64,000 bases of DNA from Bifidobacterium sp. ESL0775 (GTDB lineage Bacteria > Actinomycetota > Actinomycetes > Actinomycetales > Bifidobacteriaceae): assembly GCF_029395475.1 (NCBI RefSeq), contig NZ_CP113917.1, forward strand, positions 744,001 through 808,000, read 5' to 3'. Every line of letters begins with the position of its first letter. The first letter of the stretch is position 1. Positions 287-56,619 of the stretch are shown one piece after another. Under the pieces are notes generated by a model. That model ran no database searches, was not told the DNA's origin, and worked only from the letters and a program-made list of their open reading frames with translations. Both the position numbers and the translations under genes were made by a program.

Positions 287-417
287 AGTATGTTCCTTGT
301 TTGTTGTATTGCTTATGATTGTTGAATGGCTATTATGTGGTTATGACCGGCTATGAGAATGGATTGAGGGTCGAATAACCACTTCATGGTAATGAATCAT
401 GACGTATTGTCCATAAA

Positions 418-506
418 TCGCTCCCTACGCTGGTGTTGACCATCAGGTTCAAAGGGTCTGGCGATTTCGCCACTCTCAACCCGCTGCCGGGTTCCCCTGC
501 TTGCAG
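418..506 (-). promoter_or_regulatory. TPP (thiamine pyrophosphate) riboswitch
   Basis: Read on the minus strand this stretch holds the TPP aptamer landmarks in order: a GGGGAACCCG 5' arm, GGGTTGAGAGT (the usual CTGAGA with one change), CCCTTTGAACCTGAT, and ACACCAGCGTAGGGAG at the 3' end. These are the most conserved THI-box segments. It sits about 130 bases before the start codon of the thiamine-binding protein gene, in the same orientation, so it most likely lowers that gene's expression when TPP is plentiful. The expression platform between 287 and 418 was not resolved. Confidence 0.9.
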
Positions 507-643
507 TTGTACGGTAGGTGGCCGCACGGACATACTGACGTATTCGACGAGCCAATTGAAAGTTCGAAATCGTAGAAATACTTTATTCAAGACGCGTTAA
601 TCACGGTACTTTGCGCGGTTGTTCTACATCGGTTCTTTAGGTT

Positions 644-2683: not shown

Positions 2684-4204
2684 GTGGCTCAATCCAAACT
2701 AGATGAAGTCGTATCGCTGGCCAAGCGTCGTGGTTTCGTGTTCCCCGCGGGGGAGATCTACGGTGGCACGCGCTCCGCGTGGGATTACGGCCCGCTCGGT
2801 GTCGCGCTCAAGGACAATATCAAGCGCGAATGGTGGCGTTCGATGGTGGTCACCCGCGGTGACGTCGTCGGCGTCGACACCTCTATTATTCTTCCTTCCG
2901 CCGTCTGGGAGGCCTCCGGCCATGTCAAGGTCTTCAACGACCCGCTGATCGAATGCCTCAACTGCCACAAGCGCCAGCGCGCCGACAAGCTCGAGGAATC
3001 CTACGCCGAGAAGCATGGCGACAAGATGCCGGAAGACGGCCTCAAATCGATTGTCTGCCCCGACTGCGGCACCCGCGGCCAGTGGACGGAACCGCGTGAC
3101 TTCAACATGATGCTTCGCACCCACCTCGGGCCGGTGGATGACGAGAACTCGCTGCACTACCTGCGCCCGGAGACCGCGCAGGGCATCTTCGTGGACTTCA
3201 AGAACGTTATGACCTCCTCGCGCTCCAAGCCGCCGTTCGGCATCGCCAACATGGGCAAGTCCTTCCGCAACGAGATTACCCCGGGCAACTTCATCTTCCG
3301 CACCCGCGAGTTCGAGCAGATGGAGATGGAGTTCTTCGTCGAGCCCGGCACTGACGAGGAATGGCACCAGTACTGGATTGACACCCGCACCCGCTGGTAC
3401 ACCGACCTCGGCATCAACCCGGAGAACCTGCGCCATTATGAGCATCCCAAGGAGAAGCTTGCGCACTATTCCAAGCGCACCGTCGACATCGAATACAAGT
3501 TCGGCTTCAAGGGCTCCGACTGGGGCGAGCTCGAAGGCGTGGCCAACCGCACCGATTTCGACCTTTCCGCGCATCAGGAGTATTCCGGCGAGGACCTCAC
3601 CTTCTTCGACCAGGCTAGCGGCAAGAAGTACATTCCTTACGTCATCGAACCGGCCGCAGGCTTGACCCGTTCACTCATGGCCTTCCTCGTGGACGCTTAC
3701 GCAGTCGATGAGGCGCCGAATACCAAGGGCGGCGTCGACCGCCGTACCGTGTTGCGTCTCGACCCGAGGCTTTCGCCGGTCAAGGCCGCCGTCTTCCCGC
3801 TGAGCAAGAAGGCGCCGCTGCAGGGCATCGCCCACGACCTGGCCGCCGAACTGCGTCAGCACGACTGGATGATCGACTACGACGAGACCGGAGCCATCGG
3901 CCGCCGTTACCGTCGTCAGGACGAGATCGGCACCCCGCTTTGCATCACCGTCGATTTCGACACCACCGACGACCACGCAGTCACCATCCGCGAACGCGAC
4001 TCGATGAAGCAGGAGCGCGTCGACCTCGACAACGTGGCCAAGTACATCGCCGACCGCATCGGCGAGAAGCGTGTGCGCTATCCCGAAGGCCCGGCCTCCA
4101 TCGTCGGCACCACCGCAGCCGATGGCGGCGTAGACTTCGCCAAGGAGTCCGGCGTGGACGAATCTGCTCCGGTCAAGGTAGCAGAGGCTGGTGGACTCTA
4201 CTAA
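2684..4204 (+). CDS. glyS: Glycyl-tRNA synthetase (dimeric alpha2 type)
   Basis: A 506-residue class II aminoacyl-tRNA synthetase that charges tRNA-Gly. GTG start at 2684 preceded by CGGAAGG. It opens with [20 protein letters not shown] and the glycine-specific strand [16 protein letters not shown] zinc-type insertion has [10 protein letters not shown] and [10 protein letters not shown]. Motif 2 is [19 protein letters not shown] and motif 3 is [14 protein letters not shown]. The anticodon-binding domain follows from about residue 360. Length and motif order fit the bacterial/eukaryotic single-chain enzyme, not the alpha2beta2 one. It stands alone, separated from dusB by two hairpin repeat elements. 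Confidence 0.95.
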
Positions 4205-4251
4205 GTCGCTTTGGGAAACTAGTCGATAAAACTGTATAAGTTTCAACTGAC

Positions 4252-4350
4252 GTTGTTAGGTGTCGGGATATACAATGTTCGGGACGCTCCTTGGCCGCTC
4301 GGCCGTGTCTTACGCCCGAACATCGCATATCCCGACACCCAACACTCAAC
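4252..4350 (+). repeat. Intergenic hairpin element, copy A
   Basis: A 99-bp near-perfect inverted repeat. The left arm (GGTGTCGGGATAT, ACAATGTTCGGG) pairs with the right arm (CCCGAACATCGCATATCCCGACACC in part), enclosing a central loop with GACGCTCC, GGCCGCTCGGCC and GTCTTACG. The same core recurs at 4434-4527, 5923-6101 and 11170-11260, while the outer arms differ. No transposase and no protein-coding potential. About 10-20 bases after the right arm the plus strand is T-rich (TGTTTGTTTTTGG), so it may also end glyS transcription. Confidence 0.85.
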
Positions 4351-4433
4351 GGAATTCAACTGTTTGTTTTTGGACTCAAAATGGTCATGTACAGATGTTG
4401 GCAATCAAGCAGCAGAGAGTCAGAATGTGTTGA

Positions 4434-4527
4434 GTGCTTGGGGCTGGGGCATGCGATGTCAGACCGTAAAGACTTGGCCTGAGCGGCCCGGAGCGTGTCG
4501 GACATTGTATGCCCCAGCCCCAAGCAC
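4434..4527 (-). repeat. Intergenic hairpin element, copy B (inverted relative to A)
   Basis: GTGCTTGGGGCTGGGGC at 4434-4450 is matched exactly at 4511-4527, and the inner part carries the same core as copy A in reverse orientation. The outer arms are those of copy C rather than of A. Copies A and B face each other across 83 bases between glyS and dusB and fill most of the 375-base gap. Confidence 0.85.
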
Positions 4528-4579
4528 GTCAGTTGAAGTATTGTTTTGACGAATAGTAGATAAATAAAATAGGTGATAC

Positions 4580-5893
4580 GTGAAGGACTTTAAGGAATGG
4601 CTGAGCCGGGTGGATTATTCGGAGGCTCGGCAGCGGTTTGATGACGGTTGGGACGAGGTGCTCAAGGGATTGCCTGGGCTTGATTCCAGTGAGACCAGTG
4701 CGCAGGACGGCGAATACGAAGCCGCTGATGATGGCAAGCCGTTGCCGAAGATCGCGCCAGTCGATTTGGGGCCGCTGCATATCGAGACCCCGGTTGTGCT
4801 TTCTCCGATGGCGGGCGTGGCCAACTGGCCGTTCCGAACGCTGTGCCGTGCATACGGTCCCGATGGGTTATATGTCGCTGAGATGATCACCGCGCGTGCG
4901 CTGGTCGCCCGCAATCCCAAGGCGTTCAGGCTTTGCCGCTTCGCGCCGACGGAGAAAATTCGCTCGCTGCAGCTTTACGGTGTCGACCCGAACATCACCG
5001 CCCAGGCCGCCCAGATGGTGGTCCATGGCAATCTGGCCGATCACGTCGACCTCAACTTTGGCTGCCCGGTGCCCAAGGTCACTCGTCGCGGCGGTGGTTC
5101 CGCGTTGCCATGGAAAACTGACCTCTTCCGCGAGCTTATCCATCGTGTGGTTGAAGTGTGCAGCGATGCCAATATTCCTGTGACCGCAAAGATCCGCGTC
5201 GGTATTGACGTCGATCACACTACATTCCTTGACGCGGCTCGTATCGCCGAAGACGAAGGCTGTGCGGCTGTCACGCTGCATGCGCGCACCACCGCCGAAT
5301 ATTATGGTGGCCATTCCGATTGGAGCCGTATCGCCGAACTCGTGAAAGCCGTCGATATCCCGGTGTTCGGCAATGGTGATATCTGGGGTGCCGAGGACGC
5401 GTTGGAAATGGTGCGTGAGACTGGTTGCGCAGGCGTCGCCATTGGGCGCGGATGCCAGGGCAGGCCATGGATCTTCTCCGATATCAAACACGCCTTCGCC
5501 GGTTCCGACGAACGCTTCAGCCCGACGCTCGGCGGTGTCTTCCAGATCATCATGGCCCATGGCCAGCTGTTACTGCGCTTCTACGATGGCGACGAGACGA
5601 TGGCCGTGCACGACCTGCGCAAGCACATCGCGTGGTATCTCAAGGGCTTCCCGGTCGGTGGCAATACACGTCGCGAGTTCATGGAATCGGAGACGTTGGA
5701 CGATGTCAGAAAAGTGATGGACAAACTCGACCCGTCCATCACGTATCCAGAACGTATTACAGATAAGCCCCGCGGCCGTGTTCGCTACGCGAAAAAGGTC
5801 CACGTCCCTTACGGCTGGTTCGATTCGCGCACCACCACCCATGAAGAGCGCGAGCAGCTTTTCGGTGACGACCCCATGGATGCCAGTTACTGA
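4580..5893 (+). CDS. dusB: tRNA-dihydrouridine synthase (DusB type)
   Basis: A 437-residue flavoenzyme that reduces uridines in the tRNA D-loop using FMN and NADPH. GTG start at 4580 with AGGTGAT just upstream. A roughly 65-residue acidic N-terminal extension precedes the TIM barrel. Signature strands are VVLSPMAGVANWPFRTLCR, the catalytic-cysteine loop LNFGCPVPKVTRRGGGSAL, VTAKIRVGI, LHARTT and GNGDI, and the phosphate-binding AIGRGCQGRPW. The C-terminal helical domain contains HIAWYLKGFPVGG. It is flanked by hairpin elements on both sides (A and B upstream, C downstream), so it is probably a single-gene transcript. Confidence 0.93.
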   Translation: MKDFKEWLSRVDYSEARQRFDDGWDEVLKGLPGLDSSETSAQDGEYEAADDGKPLPKIAPVDLGPLHIETPVVLSPMAGVANWPFRTLCRAYGPDGLYVAEMITARALVARNPKAFRLCRFAPTEKIRSLQLYGVDPNITAQAAQMVVHGNLADHVDLNFGCPVPKVTRRGGGSALPWKTDLFRELIHRVVEVCSDANIPVTAKIRVGIDVDHTTFLDAARIAEDEGCAAVTLHARTTAEYYGGHSDWSRIAELVKAVDIPVFGNGDIWGAEDALEMVRETGCAGVAIGRGCQGRPWIFSDIKHAFAGSDERFSPTLGGVFQIIMAHGQLLLRFYDGDETMAVHDLRKHIAWYLKGFPVGGNTRREFMESETLDDVRKVMDKLDPSITYPERITDKPRGRVRYAKKVHVPYGWFDSRTTTHEEREQLFGDDPMDASY

Positions 5894-5922
5894 TTGATGA
5901 TTAGTAAGAAATAAGTGTGGCG

Positions 5923-6101
5923 GTGCTTGGGGCTGGGATATACAATGTCCGACACGCTCCGGGCTGAGCCGTGAAGCAGGAAGCCCTGTGGGCTTCTTGT
6001 AGGCGAAGTGAGCGCGATGTATTGAGCGCGAAGGTAAAATCTTTGATTTTACACAGGCCGAGTCTTTACGGTCTGACATCGCATATCCCAGCCCCAAGCA
6101 C
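5923..6101 (+). repeat. Intergenic hairpin element, copy C (expanded)
   Basis: GTGCTTGGGGCTGGGATAT at 5923-5941 pairs with the matching right arm ending at 6101. The terminal parts match copies A, B and D, but the centre is about 85 bases longer and contains three further small hairpins: GAAGCCC...GGGCTTC, GCGCG...GCGCG and GTAAAATC...GATTTTAC. Same orientation as copy A. The remaining 155 bases up to ftsZ (6102-6256) are AT-rich and should hold the ftsZ promoter; no clear -35/-10 pair could be assigned. Confidence 0.85.
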
Positions 6102-6256
6102 ATTTATTTTGAATCTGCAAGAAACCTATTGATAAGGTCCGAACAGCAGAAATTGATAAAAATCCAAAAAAGTTGTGGTACACACCGGGAAATAGTCTTA
6201 ATGTAGGCGTGTTCTGCGATAGAGTAATAGGCATAACCGTGAAGTGACAGGAGACT

Positions 6257-7456
6257 ATGGTGAGCGAGATTGCCCCGAATGACAATTTCAACGATAAGAC
6301 GAGCATCAAGGTGGTCGGTGTCGGTGGTGCCGGTGGTAACGCCGTCAATCGAATGATTGCCGAAGGCTTGCAGAACGTTGAATTTGTAGCGATTAATACC
6401 GACGCGAAAGACCTGCTCCGTAGCGACGCGGATGTCAAGATTTCCCTGAGCGATCACTCCAGTAGAGGATTGGGCGCAGGGGCTGACCCCGAAAAGGGCG
6501 CCAAGGCCGCGCAAGACCACCAATCCGACATCGAGGAAGCGCTTAAGGGCGCCGACATGGTCTTCGTCACCTGCGGCGAAGGCGGCGGCACTGGTACCGG
6601 CGCGAGCCCCATCGTCGCGCGTGCGGCTCACCAGCAGGGTGCGCTGACCATCGCCGTGGTCACCCGTCCGTTCGCTTTCGAAGGCCCGCAGCGTGCGGCC
6701 TCCGCGAAGCTCGGCATCGAGAACCTGCGCAAGGAAGTCGATGCGCTGATCGTCATCCCGAACGACCGTCTCCTTGAGCTTTCCGACAAGACCATCGGCA
6801 TCGTCGACGCCTTCAAGACTGCCGACACCGCGCTTCTGGCCGGCGTGCAGGGCATCACCGACCTGATCACGATGAACTCCTACATTCACGTCGACTTCTC
6901 CGATGTCACTGCGATCCTGCGCGGCGCGGGCACGGCGCTGTTCGGCATCGGCTCGGCGCGCGGCGAGGACCGCGCCACCCAGGCCGCCGAAATCGCCATC
7001 AGCTCGCCGCTCCTGGAAGAGAGCATCGAAGGTGCCCATGGCGCGCTCATCAACATCGCCGGCCCGACCGACTTGAAGCTTCAGGAAGCCAGCGACGCCA
7101 CCGAACTGGTGCGCAAGGCCATCCACCCTGAAGCTCAAATCATCTGGGGCCTCGCCTTGGACGACGCTTACGGCGACGAGGTCCGCGTCACCGTCATCGC
7201 GGCAGGATTCGACGCCGAAGGCAAGAAGGACGCCGAGGATTCCGATGATGATGCCGCCAAATCCGCTCCCCATCGCACCGACTCGCCGGCACGCCACTCC
7301 TATCATTCCGACGACGAACCGCTCGTGCGCGAGGTGCCGGATCTGGATACGCCGACCGTGTCGCACACCCCGGAAGACACGAGCTACGACGAGCCCGAGC
7401 AGTCCGCTTCGCCCGATGACCCCGGCGATCTCGACATCCCGGATTTCCTGCGGTAA
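6257..7456 (+). CDS. ftsZ: Cell division protein FtsZ
   Basis: A 399-residue tubulin-like GTPase that assembles the cytokinetic ring. ATG at 6257 has CAGGAGAC upstream. [10 protein letters not shown] is at residues 21-30 and the tubulin signature [10 protein letters not shown] near residue 110. The T7 synergy loop reads HVDFSDV at residues 211-217: both aspartates of the usual NxDxxD are present but the asparagine is histidine. A disordered acidic linker (about 325-385) ends in the conserved C-terminal peptide DLDIPDFLR, the docking site for SepF and other partners. It heads an ftsZ-sepF-yggT-divIVA run and is not in the dcw cluster, which lies 33 kb away in this window. Confidence 0.97.
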
Positions 7457-7480
7457 GCAAGTAGACGAAAGGATTTTTTG

Positions 7481-7966
7481 ATGGCTGGATACATGAAAAA
7501 GGCGATGTCCTATCTGGGCATGACCGATGTCGTCGATGACGATGACGTCGACGCCCAGGACGATGACGAGCCGACGTCCTCCGATTTCGATTCGGACAGC
7601 ACCGTGACGCCGATCACGCAGCACACCACGTCCGCCGCCTCGCAGGATTCCGCGATGACTTCGCGCGCTTCGAAACCGTTCCCCGCAGGTCGTATGAACC
7701 GCATCACCACGATCCACCCGAAGTCATATGAGGACGCCCAGCAGGTCGGCCGCGCCATCCGTGACGGCATTCCCGTGGTCCTGAACCTCACCGACGTCTC
7801 CGAGGCTGTGGCCTACCGCATCGTTGATTTCTCGGCGGGCGTCGTTTTCGGCGTGCGCGGCTCGCTTGAGCGCGTCACCCCGAGGGTCTTTCTGCTGAGC
7901 CCGGCCCAGGTCAACATCAAGGTCGAGAAGTCCCAGTCCGACGAAGCCAGCGACGGCCTGTTCTGA
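7481..7966 (+). CDS. sepF: Cell division protein SepF
   Basis: A 161-residue protein that tethers FtsZ filaments to the membrane. ATG at 7481 is preferred to the TTG one codon earlier because AAAGGA (7468-7473) is 7 bases away. The N-terminal helix AGYMKKAMSYLGM is the amphipathic membrane anchor, followed by an acidic low-complexity linker, and from about residue 75 the DUF552 globular domain (TTIHPKSYEDAQQVGRAIRD, VVLNLTDVSEAVAYRIVDF, GVRGSLERVTPRVFLLSP). It follows ftsZ by 24 bases and is probably co-transcribed. Actinobacteria lack FtsA, which makes SepF the likely main membrane anchor here. Confidence 0.95.
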   Translation: MAGYMKKAMSYLGMTDVVDDDDVDAQDDDEPTSSDFDSDSTVTPITQHTTSAASQDSAMTSRASKPFPAGRMNRITTIHPKSYEDAQQVGRAIRDGIPVVLNLTDVSEAVAYRIVDFSAGVVFGVRGSLERVTPRVFLLSPAQVNIKVEKSQSDEASDGLF

Positions 7967-7972
7967 GGTCCT

Positions 7973-8251
7973 ATGCTCTTTCTGATTCTCTCCATCCTGC
8001 GCTGGCTCCTTGGTCTCTACGGGACGGTGCTCTTCATCAGGGTGCTGATCGACTGGGTGTTCGTGCTCGCGCCACGTTGGCGCCCCGGCCACGTGCTTGG
8101 CTCGATCATCCGTGTCTTTTATATCTTGACCGACCCGCCGCTGCGCTGGCTGCAGCGTTTCATTCCACCCATCAGGCTTGGCAATATGGGCCTGGACGTC
8201 ACGCCGATGATATTGTGGTTCATCATCGCCGTGCTTGAAGTGATTATCTGA
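7973..8251 (+). CDS. yggT: YggT family membrane protein
   Basis: A 92-residue integral membrane protein with two hydrophobic segments (LFLILSILRWLLGLYGTVLF in part; VTPMILWFIIAVLEVII) separated by a loop containing LTDPPLRWLQRFIPPIR, the PF02325 hallmark. It starts 6 bases after the sepF stop with TGAGGT as ribosome binding site. Its fixed place between sepF and divIVA in Gram-positive genomes suggests a role in membrane organisation at division sites; the biochemical role is not known. Confidence 0.9.
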   Translation: MLFLILSILRWLLGLYGTVLFIRVLIDWVFVLAPRWRPGHVLGSIIRVFYILTDPPLRWLQRFIPPIRLGNMGLDVTPMILWFIIAVLEVII

Positions 8252-8345
8252 ATTGGCGGTTTCGCAAGGGTACACTGGGTGGTGTAGCATTTATCCGAAG
8301 AGTCAATATTAGAGGCATTATGCCCAAAGTGAGGTGTAAAAGTTT

Positions 8346-9614
8346 ATGGCACTGTTAACGCCGAAGGATATCAGGGAACATGCCTTCCAAACCGTACGTT
8401 TTAAAGAGGGATACGACGTCGAAGAGGTCGATGATTTCCTCGATCAGGTCACCGAGACCGTAGAGGCTCTCGGCAAGCAGGCGATGGCGAACGGCAACGG
8501 CCAGTCGACCCAGTCGCTGGGACCGGATGTCAGCAAGCTCAATTCGAAGATTTCCGACCTCACCTCGCAGGTGCAGGCGTTGAGCCGCGAGAACCAGACG
8601 CTCAAGACCGCCAGCCAGCAGACCGGCAGCGCCGACGACCAGGCCGCCAAGGTCGCCGCCTCCAAGCTCGCCGAAGCCGAGGAGAGCAACAGGGGCTTGG
8701 CCGAGCAGAACAAGCAGCTCAAGGACCAGGTCGATCGCCTCAACGCGCAGATCGACCAGCTCACCGCCCAGGCCGCGCAGGCCGCGGGCAAGAAGGACGT
8801 CGACAACCAGCTCGCCGCCGTCCAGCACGAGCGCGATGAGTTCCGCAGCGGCAACGAGAAGCTTTCCCGTGAGCTCGAGCAGGCCAAGAAGCAGCTTTCC
8901 AACGCCAGCGAGCAGTCCCGCCAGCTTCAGGACCTTTCCCGCCAGCTGCAGGAATCCAAGCAGCGCGAGAACGAGCTTCGCGCCCAGGTCTCCAAGATTG
9001 AGCCGAGCGCCGAGACCGGCAGCCTGCAGAAGATCGCCGGCGCCGCGGCTGGTGCCGCCAGCGAGCCCGAGCGCGCCACCGCGATGCTCACGCTTGCCAT
9101 GCAGCTGCACGACCAGTACGTCGACAAGGGCAAGGCCAAGGCCAAGGAGATCACCGAAGCCAGCCAGACCAAGTACCAAGAGCTGGTCAACAAGGCCAAC
9201 GATTATTCCAACCGCACCCGCAACGAGTCCGACGAATATGCCAAGCAAGCTCGCGGCAAGGCCGATGATTATTCCAAGCAGGTCCGTTCGGAAGCCGACA
9301 CCTACGCGCAAAAGATCCGTGGCGGCGCCGAGGAATACGAGAAGCAGAAGCACACCGTCGCCGATGCCTACGAGTCCGAAGTGCAGCGCCGTGCCGCCGA
9401 TTACGATCAGAAGACCCGTTCCGCGGCCGATTCCTACGCCAAGGAAGTGCGCGAGAACCTCGCTTCGCAGTCCAAGGTCGCCGAGGCCAACATCCAGAGC
9501 CTCAAGCAGTTCGAGACCGAGTACCGCACTCGCCTGACCGAGTTCTTGGGCCAGCTCGTCTCCCAGGTGAGCGATACGAGCACCTACAACAAGATGGAAG
9601 AATCCAAGGACTGA
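8346..9614 (+). CDS. divIVA: DivIVA/Wag31-type polar growth and division protein
   Basis: A 422-residue coiled-coil protein. The N-terminus MALLTPKDIREHAFQTVRFK, then GYDVEEVDDFLDQV, is the lipid-binding DivIVA domain that recognises negatively curved membrane. A long left-handed coiled coil follows to about residue 225, rich in Q, E and K. From residue 285 to 372 the sequence becomes a strict 11-residue repeat, eight units, with Tyr at 287, 298, 309, 320, 331, 342, 353 and 364 and the pattern DxYxxxxRxxA. In actinobacteria this protein recruits wall synthesis to the poles. AGGTGTAAAAGTTT precedes the ATG, and a 94-base gap separates it from yggT. Confidence 0.95.
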   Translation: MALLTPKDIREHAFQTVRFKEGYDVEEVDDFLDQVTETVEALGKQAMANGNGQSTQSLGPDVSKLNSKISDLTSQVQALSRENQTLKTASQQTGSADDQAAKVAASKLAEAEESNRGLAEQNKQLKDQVDRLNAQIDQLTAQAAQAAGKKDVDNQLAAVQHERDEFRSGNEKLSRELEQAKKQLSNASEQSRQLQDLSRQLQESKQRENELRAQVSKIEPSAETGSLQKIAGAAAGAASEPERATAMLTLAMQLHDQYVDKGKAKAKEITEASQTKYQELVNKANDYSNRTRNESDEYAKQARGKADDYSKQVRSEADTYAQKIRGGAEEYEKQKHTVADAYESEVQRRAADYDQKTRSAADSYAKEVRENLASQSKVAEANIQSLKQFETEYRTRLTEFLGQLVSQVSDTSTYNKMEESKD

Positions 9615-9627
9615 TTCGGCCATCGAT

Positions 9628-10194
9628 ATGAAGAATGTATCACCCAAACGGCCGCGCACTCGTGTGGCCGTTTTCGTTATCGTGGCGGTGGTGGCGCTCC
9701 TGCTTGACCGCCTGACCAAGCTGTGGGCACAGGCCGAGCTGAGTTCACATACCACCGTCGTGGTCATCCCGAAACTGCTGGGGCTGACGTTGGTGCATAA
9801 CCCCGGAGCGTCGCTTGGTATGGGATCGTCGGTGACATGGCTCATCTCCTGCTTGGCGCTGGTGGCGTGCGTGGTCTTGGTGTATCTGGCGTTGACGACG
9901 GTCTCGCTGTGGTGGACCGCGGCGCTGACGCTTGCGTTTGCTGGGGCTTTTGGCAATCTCATCGACCGCGTGATTTTCGCCCATGGGTTCCTCAACGGTT
10001 CCGTGGTCGATTTCCTCAATTACGGCTGGTCCGTCGGCAATGTGGCCGATATCGAGCTTGGCGTGGCGGCGGTGATGATCGTCGTCCTGCTGCTGGCCAG
10101 CGTGCCATTCAGCAAGAAGGACCTCGCCGTGCAAGACGAGCAAGGCGAAACCCGAACCCAAACTCCCCAAGATAAAGGAGCGGACGGCCGATGA
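9628..10194 (+). CDS. lspA: Signal peptidase II (prolipoprotein signal peptidase)
   Basis: A 188-residue aspartic protease of the inner membrane that removes lipoprotein signal peptides after lipidation. Four hydrophobic segments are visible. LspA boxes are present: VHNPGASLGMG, the catalytic-Asp box GAFGNLIDRVIF, and the second Asp box VVDFLNY...NVADIELG. A polar C-terminal tail of about 25 residues follows the last helix. The start at 9628 has no strong ribosome binding site and lies 13 bases after divIVA; the stop overlaps the next ATG. A lipoprotein substrate in this window is the sugar-binding protein at 58104. Confidence 0.93.
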   Translation: MKNVSPKRPRTRVAVFVIVAVVALLLDRLTKLWAQAELSSHTTVVVIPKLLGLTLVHNPGASLGMGSSVTWLISCLALVACVVLVYLALTTVSLWWTAALTLAFAGAFGNLIDRVIFAHGFLNGSVVDFLNYGWSVGNVADIELGVAAVMIVVLLLASVPFSKKDLAVQDEQGETRTQTPQDKGADGR

Positions 10195-11117
10195 GTCGTC
10201 TGGTGCCTGCCCCGGATGCCTTGGTCGGCAAGAGATTCGATGTCGCCGTGGCCAAGATGCTGGGTGTCTCGCGCTCCAAGGCCGTCGAGCTCATCGAGGC
10301 CGGTGAAGTATCTGTATTACAACGGCACGTCTCGAAATCGGGAATCCTCGCCAGCGGCGACACCGTTGAATTCGACATCGTGGAGAAGGACCCGGACCCA
10401 GAGCCGTTGGCCCAAGGCATGGCCGTGGTCTACGAGGACGAGGACGTCGTCGTGGTCGACAAACCGGTTGGTGTGGCGGCCCACGCTTCCGCCGGATGGA
10501 CCGGGCCCACGGTGCTCGGCAGCCTTCTGGCACGCGGCACCCATATCACCTCGCTTGGCGCCCTCGGCAGGCAGGGCATCGTCAGCCGGCTCGACGTCGG
10601 CACCAGCGGATTGATGCTGGTATGCAAATCCGACCTGGCCTACCGCGAGATGCGCCGTCAATTCGCCCATCACGAGGTCGTCAAGATCTACCACGCGCTG
10701 GTGCAAGGCAACCTCACCCACGACAAGGCGACCATCGAGGCGCCCATCGGCCGGGCCAAGGTCTCCGACTTCCGTTTCACCGTCACGCCGTTGGGCAAGA
10801 AGGCCATCACCCATTGGGATGTGCTCGAACGCTTCAGCGAGGCCACGCTGGTGAGCGTCAACCTCGAGACGGGCCGTACCCACCAGATCCGCGTGCATTT
10901 CTCCTCCATCGGCCACCCGCTGGTGGGCGATTCGATGTATGGCGCGAACCCCGTGCTCGCCGAGCGCCTGGGTTTGACCCGCCAATGGTTGCACGCGATA
11001 CGCCTGGAATTCCGCCACCCCCGCACCCACGTCTGGACCACGGTCTCGTCCCGCTATCCCGCCGATTTGGCTCATGCCCTCAACGTCGTGCGCGAGGATA
11101 AGTGCGAAAAAGAGTAG
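10191..11117 (+). CDS. rluD: 23S rRNA pseudouridine synthase, RluA/RluD family
   Basis: A 308-residue enzyme whose ATG overlaps the lspA stop by 4 bases (ATGA). An N-terminal S4 RNA-binding domain (VGKRFDVAVAKMLGVSRSKAVELIEAG) is followed by the catalytic domain with YEDEDVVVVDKPVGVAAHAS, the active-site Asp motif GIVSRLDVGTSGLMLV, ETGRTHQIRVHF and HPLVGDSMYG. These define the RluA family that isomerises uridines in rRNA. The lspA-rluD gene pair is widespread, which favours RluD, but substrate specificity among RluA/C/D cannot be settled by sequence alone. One copy of TGTATTACA lies within it at 10313-10321. Confidence 0.88.
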   Translation: MSRLVPAPDALVGKRFDVAVAKMLGVSRSKAVELIEAGEVSVLQRHVSKSGILASGDTVEFDIVEKDPDPEPLAQGMAVVYEDEDVVVVDKPVGVAAHASAGWTGPTVLGSLLARGTHITSLGALGRQGIVSRLDVGTSGLMLVCKSDLAYREMRRQFAHHEVVKIYHALVQGNLTHDKATIEAPIGRAKVSDFRFTVTPLGKKAITHWDVLERFSEATLVSVNLETGRTHQIRVHFSSIGHPLVGDSMYGANPVLAERLGLTRQWLHAIRLEFRHPRTHVWTTVSSRYPADLAHALNVVREDKCEKE

Positions 11118-11169
11118 ATGAAAAAGGTTACGCCTACAGCTGTTGTTGAATATTGATTAATTTGGTTAA

Positions 11170-11260
11170 GGTCGGAGAGGCGGGCATGCGTTGGCCGGGC
11201 GTAAGACACGGCCGAGCGGCCAAGGAGCGTCCCGGACAATGTATGCCCGACTCTCCGACC
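11170..11260 (-). repeat. Intergenic hairpin element, copy D
   Basis: A 91-bp inverted repeat with outer arms GGTCGGAGAG...CTCTCCGACC unlike those of the other copies. In reverse orientation its centre is identical to copy A over 38 bases (from CGGGACGCTCC through GGCCGCTCGGCC to TTACGCCCG). One base pair in the inner stem has changed on both sides relative to A, B and C. It fills much of the gap between rluD and dnaE. Confidence 0.85.
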
Positions 11261-11333
11261 GTCATGAGTTTAACGAGAAAAGTTAATTAGATATTGGTTG
11301 GACGAGTCTGACCGAGTCGGTATCGTGGAACTT

Positions 11334-56221: not shown

Positions 56222-56227
56222 GCAGAG

Positions 56228-56619
56228 TGGAGCTGCGGGGAATTGAACCCCGGTCCGATGGCCGAACCCTCAGTCTTCTACGTGCGTAGGCCGCTGGCCT
56301 TTTGGCAGTTTTTCTGCCCCCATCCGTGTCGCGGACAATGGATGGCGAGCATATCTACAGTTAAAGTCCCTGAGTCACCCTGTGGTTCAATGGCTCAAGC
56401 AAGTCCTCTAATAACGCTCAGCATCTCCCCGAAGACAATGGAGAGTGAACGGAGCAGCAGCTCACTGGTTAATCCTGGCGCGAAGCTCAGGCAGCGAGTG
56501 CGAACTCAGTGCGATTAGATTTAGCACTTGTTGTTTCGTGGAGGTCATCTCGAGTGGACTCCACATTCTCGGCACGCTTCCCTGCGACGAACAGGTCACC
56601 GTCGAAACCGATCAGCCCC
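56228..56619 (-). ncRNA. ssrA: tmRNA (transfer-messenger RNA)
   Basis: The minus strand begins GGGGCTGATCGGTTTCGACGG and ends with the T-arm and acceptor GGGGTTCAATTCCCCGCAGCTCCA; GGGGCTG and CAGCTCC form the acceptor stem. CCA is not encoded. The tag frame (56525 down to 56487) reads GCT AAA TCT AAT CGC ACT GAG TTC and continues to a TGA, giving AKSNRTEFALAA. tmRNA with SmpB rescues ribosomes stalled on broken mRNA and tags the product for degradation. The tag is the bifidobacterial one. Confidence 0.97.

Follow-up and report, generated by a model that had tools for sequence, protein, structure and literature searches.

The DNA analysed here is a window of 64,000 nucleotides from Bifidobacterium sp. 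ESL0775 (contig NZ_CP113917.1, positions 744,001 to 808,000, forward strand), in which four copies (A to D) of a palindromic element, each with a conserved tip on a stem with variable outer arms, lie between positions 4248 and 11261. About 30 such palindromic DNA repeats, scattered over this genome, make up the family to which they belong, and it has relatives throughout the genus. All four had been described in the original prediction, made from the letters of the window; three were recovered by a covariance model (copy A at 4253-4344, plus strand; copy B at 4435-4527, minus strand; copy D at 11170-11261, minus strand), and copy C was confirmed as a long form at 5923-6101. Gene names used throughout (glyS, dusB, ftsZ, rluD, dnaE, smc, tal, phosphoglycerate mutase and helicase) are readings of translations and not database annotation. 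The features are as follows:

4248..4350, plus strand: copy A (type 1 tip) including its flanks, with the hairpin proper at 4253-4344
4248-4252 and 4345-4350: flanks of copy A, TGACG and CTCAAC
4284..4314, plus strand: conserved 31-nt tip of copy A (ACGCTCC...TTACG), the commonest tip of the collected set
4429..4531, minus strand: copy B, which has a type 2 tip and forms a convergent pair with copy A
4429-4434 and 4527-4531: flanks of copy B, GTTGAG and CGTCA
5923..6101, plus strand: copy C, a long form with type 2 tip ends and an extra module within the tip
5961..6056, plus strand: H1-like extra module of copy C, laid out as GAGCCGTGAAGC-hairpin-GTAGGCGAAGTGAGC...GAGCGCGAAGG followed by a second hairpin (approximate extent, with boundaries inferred against the short forms)
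11170..11261, minus strand: copy D (type 1 tip), single, with a rluD-like gene on one side and dnaE on the other

The stem of each element is about 30 bp long, with a hypervariable outer and a conserved inner part, and ends in a conserved tip of about 31 nt. Position by position, about 28 paired positions are followed by a tip of 29–32 nt (106–117 nt in the long forms) with the frame ACGCTCC..GGCC-GCTC-GGCC..GTCTTTACG, and four tip types (1 to 4) were told apart. The element scanner is blind to type 4, the stem frame of which is offset by one, and counts by type exclude it. The collected set comprises 187 elements, of which 178 distinct ones were used in the mismatch counts and 166 short copies in the folding of both strands. 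Beyond the flank boxes TGACG and CTCAAC little conservation was seen, as judged in a 49-element subset picked by these same boxes. Copy A folds with −51.4 kcal/mol (z-score −8.0). The tip of copy C measures 117 nt against 32 nt in the short type 2 form, that is, about 85 nt extra, and copies B and C have a nearly identical outer arm (GTGCTTGGGGCTGGG), a likeness that had escaped the original prediction. Two peculiar loci were also recorded: at L101:2842-3016 the tip is reversed with respect to its TGACG/CTCAAC flanks, as though flipped, and at 1115563-1115964 of the source genome the spacer of a convergent pair contains a further inverted repeat, GCGAATAGCTGCCGCA...TGCGGCAGCTATTCGC.

The extent of the family was assessed with the covariance model, built from an alignment of 18 short copies. 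In the source genome (G000; 2.25 Mb), 48 rows marked 29 distinct places, 19 of the rows being opposite-strand readings, and together with two long forms from a pattern search, copy C and one at 2044321, this gives at least 31 copies. Matches were found in at least 71 of 112 genomes of the genus, the source genome included (38 candidates scored per genome), and in none of 295 other genomes sampled across the phylum (14 candidates scored per genome). In the latter sample of 296 genomes the source genome was the sole match, the next rows listed came from its own order, and apparently no further Bifidobacterium had been sampled. A pattern of the type 1 tip matched nine stretches of named genomes, from four organisms which were all Bifidobacterium (ESL0682, ESL0763, ESL0784 and the metagenome-assembled genome B-bin1), and the one such pattern run against viral contigs gave no match. 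ESL strains are isolates from the bee gut, and the closeness of the source strain to them, with a DusB 97% identical to that of its relative G091, suggests the same origin for it.

The idea that these are ordinary intrinsic terminators, alike by chance, would account for their position directly past stop codons. It is refuted by copy number and the shared tip, and we give it practically no credence: the exact commonest tip, 31 nt long, occurs in 31 copies with 31 different outer arms, neighbouring copies are paired convergently, T tracts are few, and a half-core pattern matched the window four times against 0.05 matches expected from shuffles. The spread over the genus extends the family far beyond the window.

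The pairing of the outer arms, each with its own partner, was as had been predicted. In the 18 short copies, 22 of 31 pairs were altered on both sides, and 93.5% of the cells were paired, compared with 74.5% after shuffling and at most 43.7% when the arms were slid against each other. Covariation persisted when many more copies were aligned, so that the refuting outcome named in the original prediction did not arise: at orthologous sites at least 281 compensated replacements were counted alongside 121 pair types other than Watson-Crick, and sliding the partner by one changed these numbers to 21 and 898. Furthermore, in the 31 copies with the commonest tip the outer arm (t17–28) showed 42% pairwise identity and was nonetheless 90% Watson-Crick paired, with an inner stem 82% identical.

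Regarding the inner stem, the two A.C mismatches said to be conserved are indeed kept in all four copies of the window, and the exchange of a neighbouring A-T pair for T-A on both sides in copy D was verified. Family-wide, however, the mismatches are common and not fixed, since they occur in 97 and 70 of 178 elements, all other cells there but one being Watson-Crick. On the strand as read, A.C was found 252 times and G.T 32 times among 4984 cells of the 178 elements (G.T in 38 of 5236 cells in another count), and the bias was mild in the outer arms alone (A.C 49, G.T 30; related copies are not independent). An A.C on this strand is a G.T or G.U on the other, and of the 166 short copies folded, the opposite strand came out more stable in 150 under DNA parameters and in 157 under RNA parameters.

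Placement was derived from simple open reading frame and third-position GC (GC3) heuristic gene calls in the source genome and its relatives; 14 of 142 groups of elements without flanking gene calls were skipped, which left 128. These groups, 86 singles and 42 pairs or clusters, lie in 107 tandem, 19 convergent and 2 divergent gaps, and 126 of them sit behind the 3' end of a gene, with a median of 34 nt past the upstream stop codon. In the source genome no copy was found in a divergent gap (28 of 31 examined). Singles in tandem gaps were oriented at random, 36 with transcription and 31 against it, which weighs against a strand-specific regulatory RNA. Neighbours no more than 500 nt apart, in contrast, were convergent in 44 of 45 cases of the collected set, with one in the same direction (orthologous pairs are not independent), and so were all 10 pairs of the source genome. 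Within pairs no preference for the same tip type was detected (14 of 44, against about 17 expected). A T-rich tract past the stem was rare (9 of 187 elements on the top strand, 3 of 187 on the bottom). Over the whole window, Rfam gave only two models above the gathering score, a thiamine pyrophosphate (TPP) riboswitch at 405-508 (minus strand) and transfer-messenger RNA (tmRNA) at 56225-56619 (minus strand); at a relaxed threshold, positions 4200-6200 returned four microRNA models and one small RNA model, all far under their gathering scores.

Orthologous gaps beside five genes were then compared among the source genome, close relatives (of the twelve, G082–G093) and the more distant G025, with presence, absence and plain hairpins judged by eye unless the model or the scanner had marked an element. 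The glyS-dusB and dusB-ftsZ gaps hold none, one, two or more elements, and near-identical arms there bear different tip types; in particular, arm GGTGTCGGGATATACAATG carries a type 1 tip in the window and a type 4 tip in G091 and G089. At smc, arm CGTGGGGTCTTGGGATAT is combined with type 3 in the source genome and with type 2 in G085, whereas G089 joins a closely similar arm to the long form of type 2. The elements of G093 and G088 have different arms, the hairpins of G091 and G082 are plain and do not match the arms of these elements, and the remaining relatives shown have none. At tal, nine genomes have elements of types 1, 3 and 4, G025 has an unrelated plain hairpin, and plain hairpins are also found in G089–G092, their base TAGAACCC in G089 and G091 being that of the arm of the source-genome element. 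The plain hairpins of the four relatives at the tal 3' end share with the local element hairpins either the arm base (two of them) or a GGAT motif of the tip.

Three relatives (G091, G086 and G025) proved to be empty at the phosphoglycerate-mutase site, with no hairpin seen by eye, and eight others shown, including the source genome, are filled; G088 lacks an element and differs in sequence there. We infer that the filled state is derived here. In G092 half an element is joined to native sequence at a shared 9-mer, CCGACACGC, and is likely the scar of a deletion between short repeats. Next to the helicase gene, the source genome, G083 and G089 have an intact terminator-like hairpin upstream of the element; G087 and G092 hold elements too, in a stretch too short, as shown, to judge the hairpin.

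Site-wise exchange of tips was quantified on 88 of the 187 elements, in clusters 1–24, which were defined by flank similarity and not by gene trees; cluster 0 (73 elements), an artefactual merge, was dropped. More than one tip type was present at 17 of the 24 site clusters. For the 74 pairs with the same site and different tips, identity was 62% at t23–28 compared with 43% after shuffling of labels, and 79% compared with 65% at t3–8 (0 of 1000 shuffles in both cases). The innermost 3 bp were 89% identical between elements of the same type at different sites, 56% between different types at the same site and 36% when both differed. The innermost pairs thus track the tip type, and exchange involves approximately the tip together with 3 bp.

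The extra module of copy C looks like a repeat in its own right, H1 (GCCGTTAAGC-hairpin-GTAGGCGAAGTGAGC...GCGAAGG), which carries a variable self-paired hairpin of its own. The H1 pattern was present in 69 of the 112 Bifidobacterium genomes, with 64 matches in G111 and no control match among the matches listed. At 30 loci inspected by eye, H1 was located inside element tips, once inverted (G076), or elsewhere, and at some places it adjoins duplicated terminator-like hairpins.

These elements are interspersed and polymorphic in their presence, they pair convergently, their stems change in a compensated manner, and related stems bear differing tips. We consider that they probably constitute a genus-wide family of non-autonomous palindromic DNA repeats, similar to repetitive extragenic palindromic (REP) sequences and bacterial interspersed mosaic elements (BIMEs), with which they have in common the many intergenic palindromes in one genome and the fixed inverted pairing. 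Other systems resemble them in part. Integron attC sites have a folded bottom strand, a variable paired part and conserved boxes, as here; their outer boxes are conserved and their tip varies, and the present elements are the reverse, in that the tip is conserved and the outer arms vary. Miniature inverted-repeat transposable elements (MITEs) and intergenic elements of the enterobacterial repetitive intergenic consensus (ERIC) kind are also non-autonomous and present or absent between species, and filled and empty orthologous sites were likewise found here, at phosphoglycerate mutase; unlike in these, no link to a known insertion sequence was found, and the same core has differing outer arms. 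REPs of the GTAG type, BIMEs and REPINs, which go with REP-associated tyrosine transposases (RAYTs, Y1 type), are similarly interspersed, arranged in inverted pairs and imperfectly palindromic with strand asymmetry. The present family differs from them in its variable stem, its conserved tip and the lack of a Y1 transposase in the source genome, and GTAG stood at the 5' foot of only 22 (top strand) and 19 (bottom strand) of 187 elements. GTGG was found there in 43 and 28 of 187, in a counted stretch that overlaps G-rich arms.

CGTC-tagged REPs are also short intergenic palindromes, mostly inverted dimers, with hetero-dimers in several families and no known dedicated transposase; they have stems of 8–9 bp, loops of 4–5 nt and a terminal CGTC tag (PMC3733652). 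The elements found here have stems of about 30 bp and tips of 29–32 nt (or 106–117 nt). Of the 187 elements, 59 had CGTC at the bottom-strand 3' foot, and at the 5' foot it occurred in one (top) and none (bottom), which does not correspond to that class. No description of the present family was encountered in the literature searched, a search for which subscription journals lay mostly outside the scope, and in the main texts of PMC3733652, PMC12306157, PMC6006769 and PMC2267715 the string 'bifidobacter' is missing.

Several observations weigh against the REP/BIME-like reading. Y1 transposase (PF01797) was detected in seven of 112 genomes, none of them the source genome or G082–G093, and in five of 14 control genomes, other transposase families not having been searched; reverse transcriptase (PF00078) was detected in eight of 112, among them two of G082–G093 and not the source genome. 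Absent from the source genome, both families are ruled out as mobilisers there. Moreover, no clear target-site duplication was seen by eye, and the effect of site at t17–22 was weak (48% identity against 43% with shuffled labels, 19 of 1000). Finally, the strand bias and the conserved tip could point to a function instead of mere spread.

The explanations considered are not all mutually exclusive. The original prediction had favoured a selected RNA or single-stranded DNA structure. Strong covariation, the z-score of copy A, deep conservation of the tip and the position behind genes would agree with a structured RNA in 3' untranslated regions, its tip being a protein- or RNA-binding motif, as would the recurrent inner-stem A.C cells, which the opposite strand reads as wobble pairs. 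This half of the claim is nevertheless disfavoured and appears very unlikely to us: singles lie at random to transcription and pairs have one copy in each direction, wobble pairs are few on the strand as read, and in the outer arms the better strand, too, has them in just 49 of 2805 cells, and neither the Rfam models above gathering nor the relaxed search offered anything credible at these copies. A single-stranded or cruciform DNA structure may be involved, given the more stable folding of the opposite strand. A site for a chromosome-organising protein, comparable to gyrase- or IHF-binding BIMEs and with the convergent pair and conserved tip as a putative binding unit, would fit the near-absolute convergent pairing, the fixed tip on free arms and the intergenic position, but 86 of the 128 groups are single, copy number is modest and presence varies between close species, which leaves this a poor candidate.

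Somewhat less remote, and still improbable, is the second possibility raised originally, that the core is a mobile cassette which enters the loops of ordinary terminator hairpins and the arms are host terminator stems. The outermost arm goes with the site and the tip does not, and tal fits, with the arm base of the source-genome element shared by the plain hairpins of G091 and G089 and with plain hairpins in G090 and G092 as well. However, these may be deletion products, the plain hairpins at smc mismatch the arms of elements, T-rich tracts are scarce, the empty relatives at phosphoglycerate mutase lack a hairpin, and the terminator-like hairpin at helicase is intact beside the element. As a general rule, insertion of the core into terminator loops is thus contradicted at the latter two sites. 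A further proposal, which we also regard as doubtful, is a mobile hairpin with exchangeable tips, in which a dedicated enzyme would recognise the folded strand and swap or copy the tip of about 37 nt and the nested H1 module from hairpin to hairpin, and the site-resident stem would stay and be continually re-palindromised.

Under the favoured REP/BIME-like interpretation, the elements may spread as DNA hairpins, formed on the lagging strand or as cruciforms, and be moved in trans by an enzyme encoded elsewhere. Their palindromic stems would be upheld by hairpin-templated correction, in which one arm serves as template for the other through template switching, or because perfect hairpins are selected for, or in both ways, and tips might pass between copies via a similar template switch or recombination. 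Elements would be tolerated behind genes because insertions in promoters are presumably selected against. A role for the host, if any, might be that of two-way 3'-end hairpins which block exonucleases and help termination.

In the source strain, a mobilising enzyme, should there be one, is of neither the Y1 nor the reverse transcriptase type. Were the proposal of exchangeable tips true, this would be a cassette system working on the tips of DNA hairpins and not on duplex ends. The family amounts to a natural experiment in the persistence of long, nearly perfect palindromes in a bacterial chromosome. The repeats could also be used to mark strains, and they may influence the 3' ends of glyS, smc, tal and other genes.

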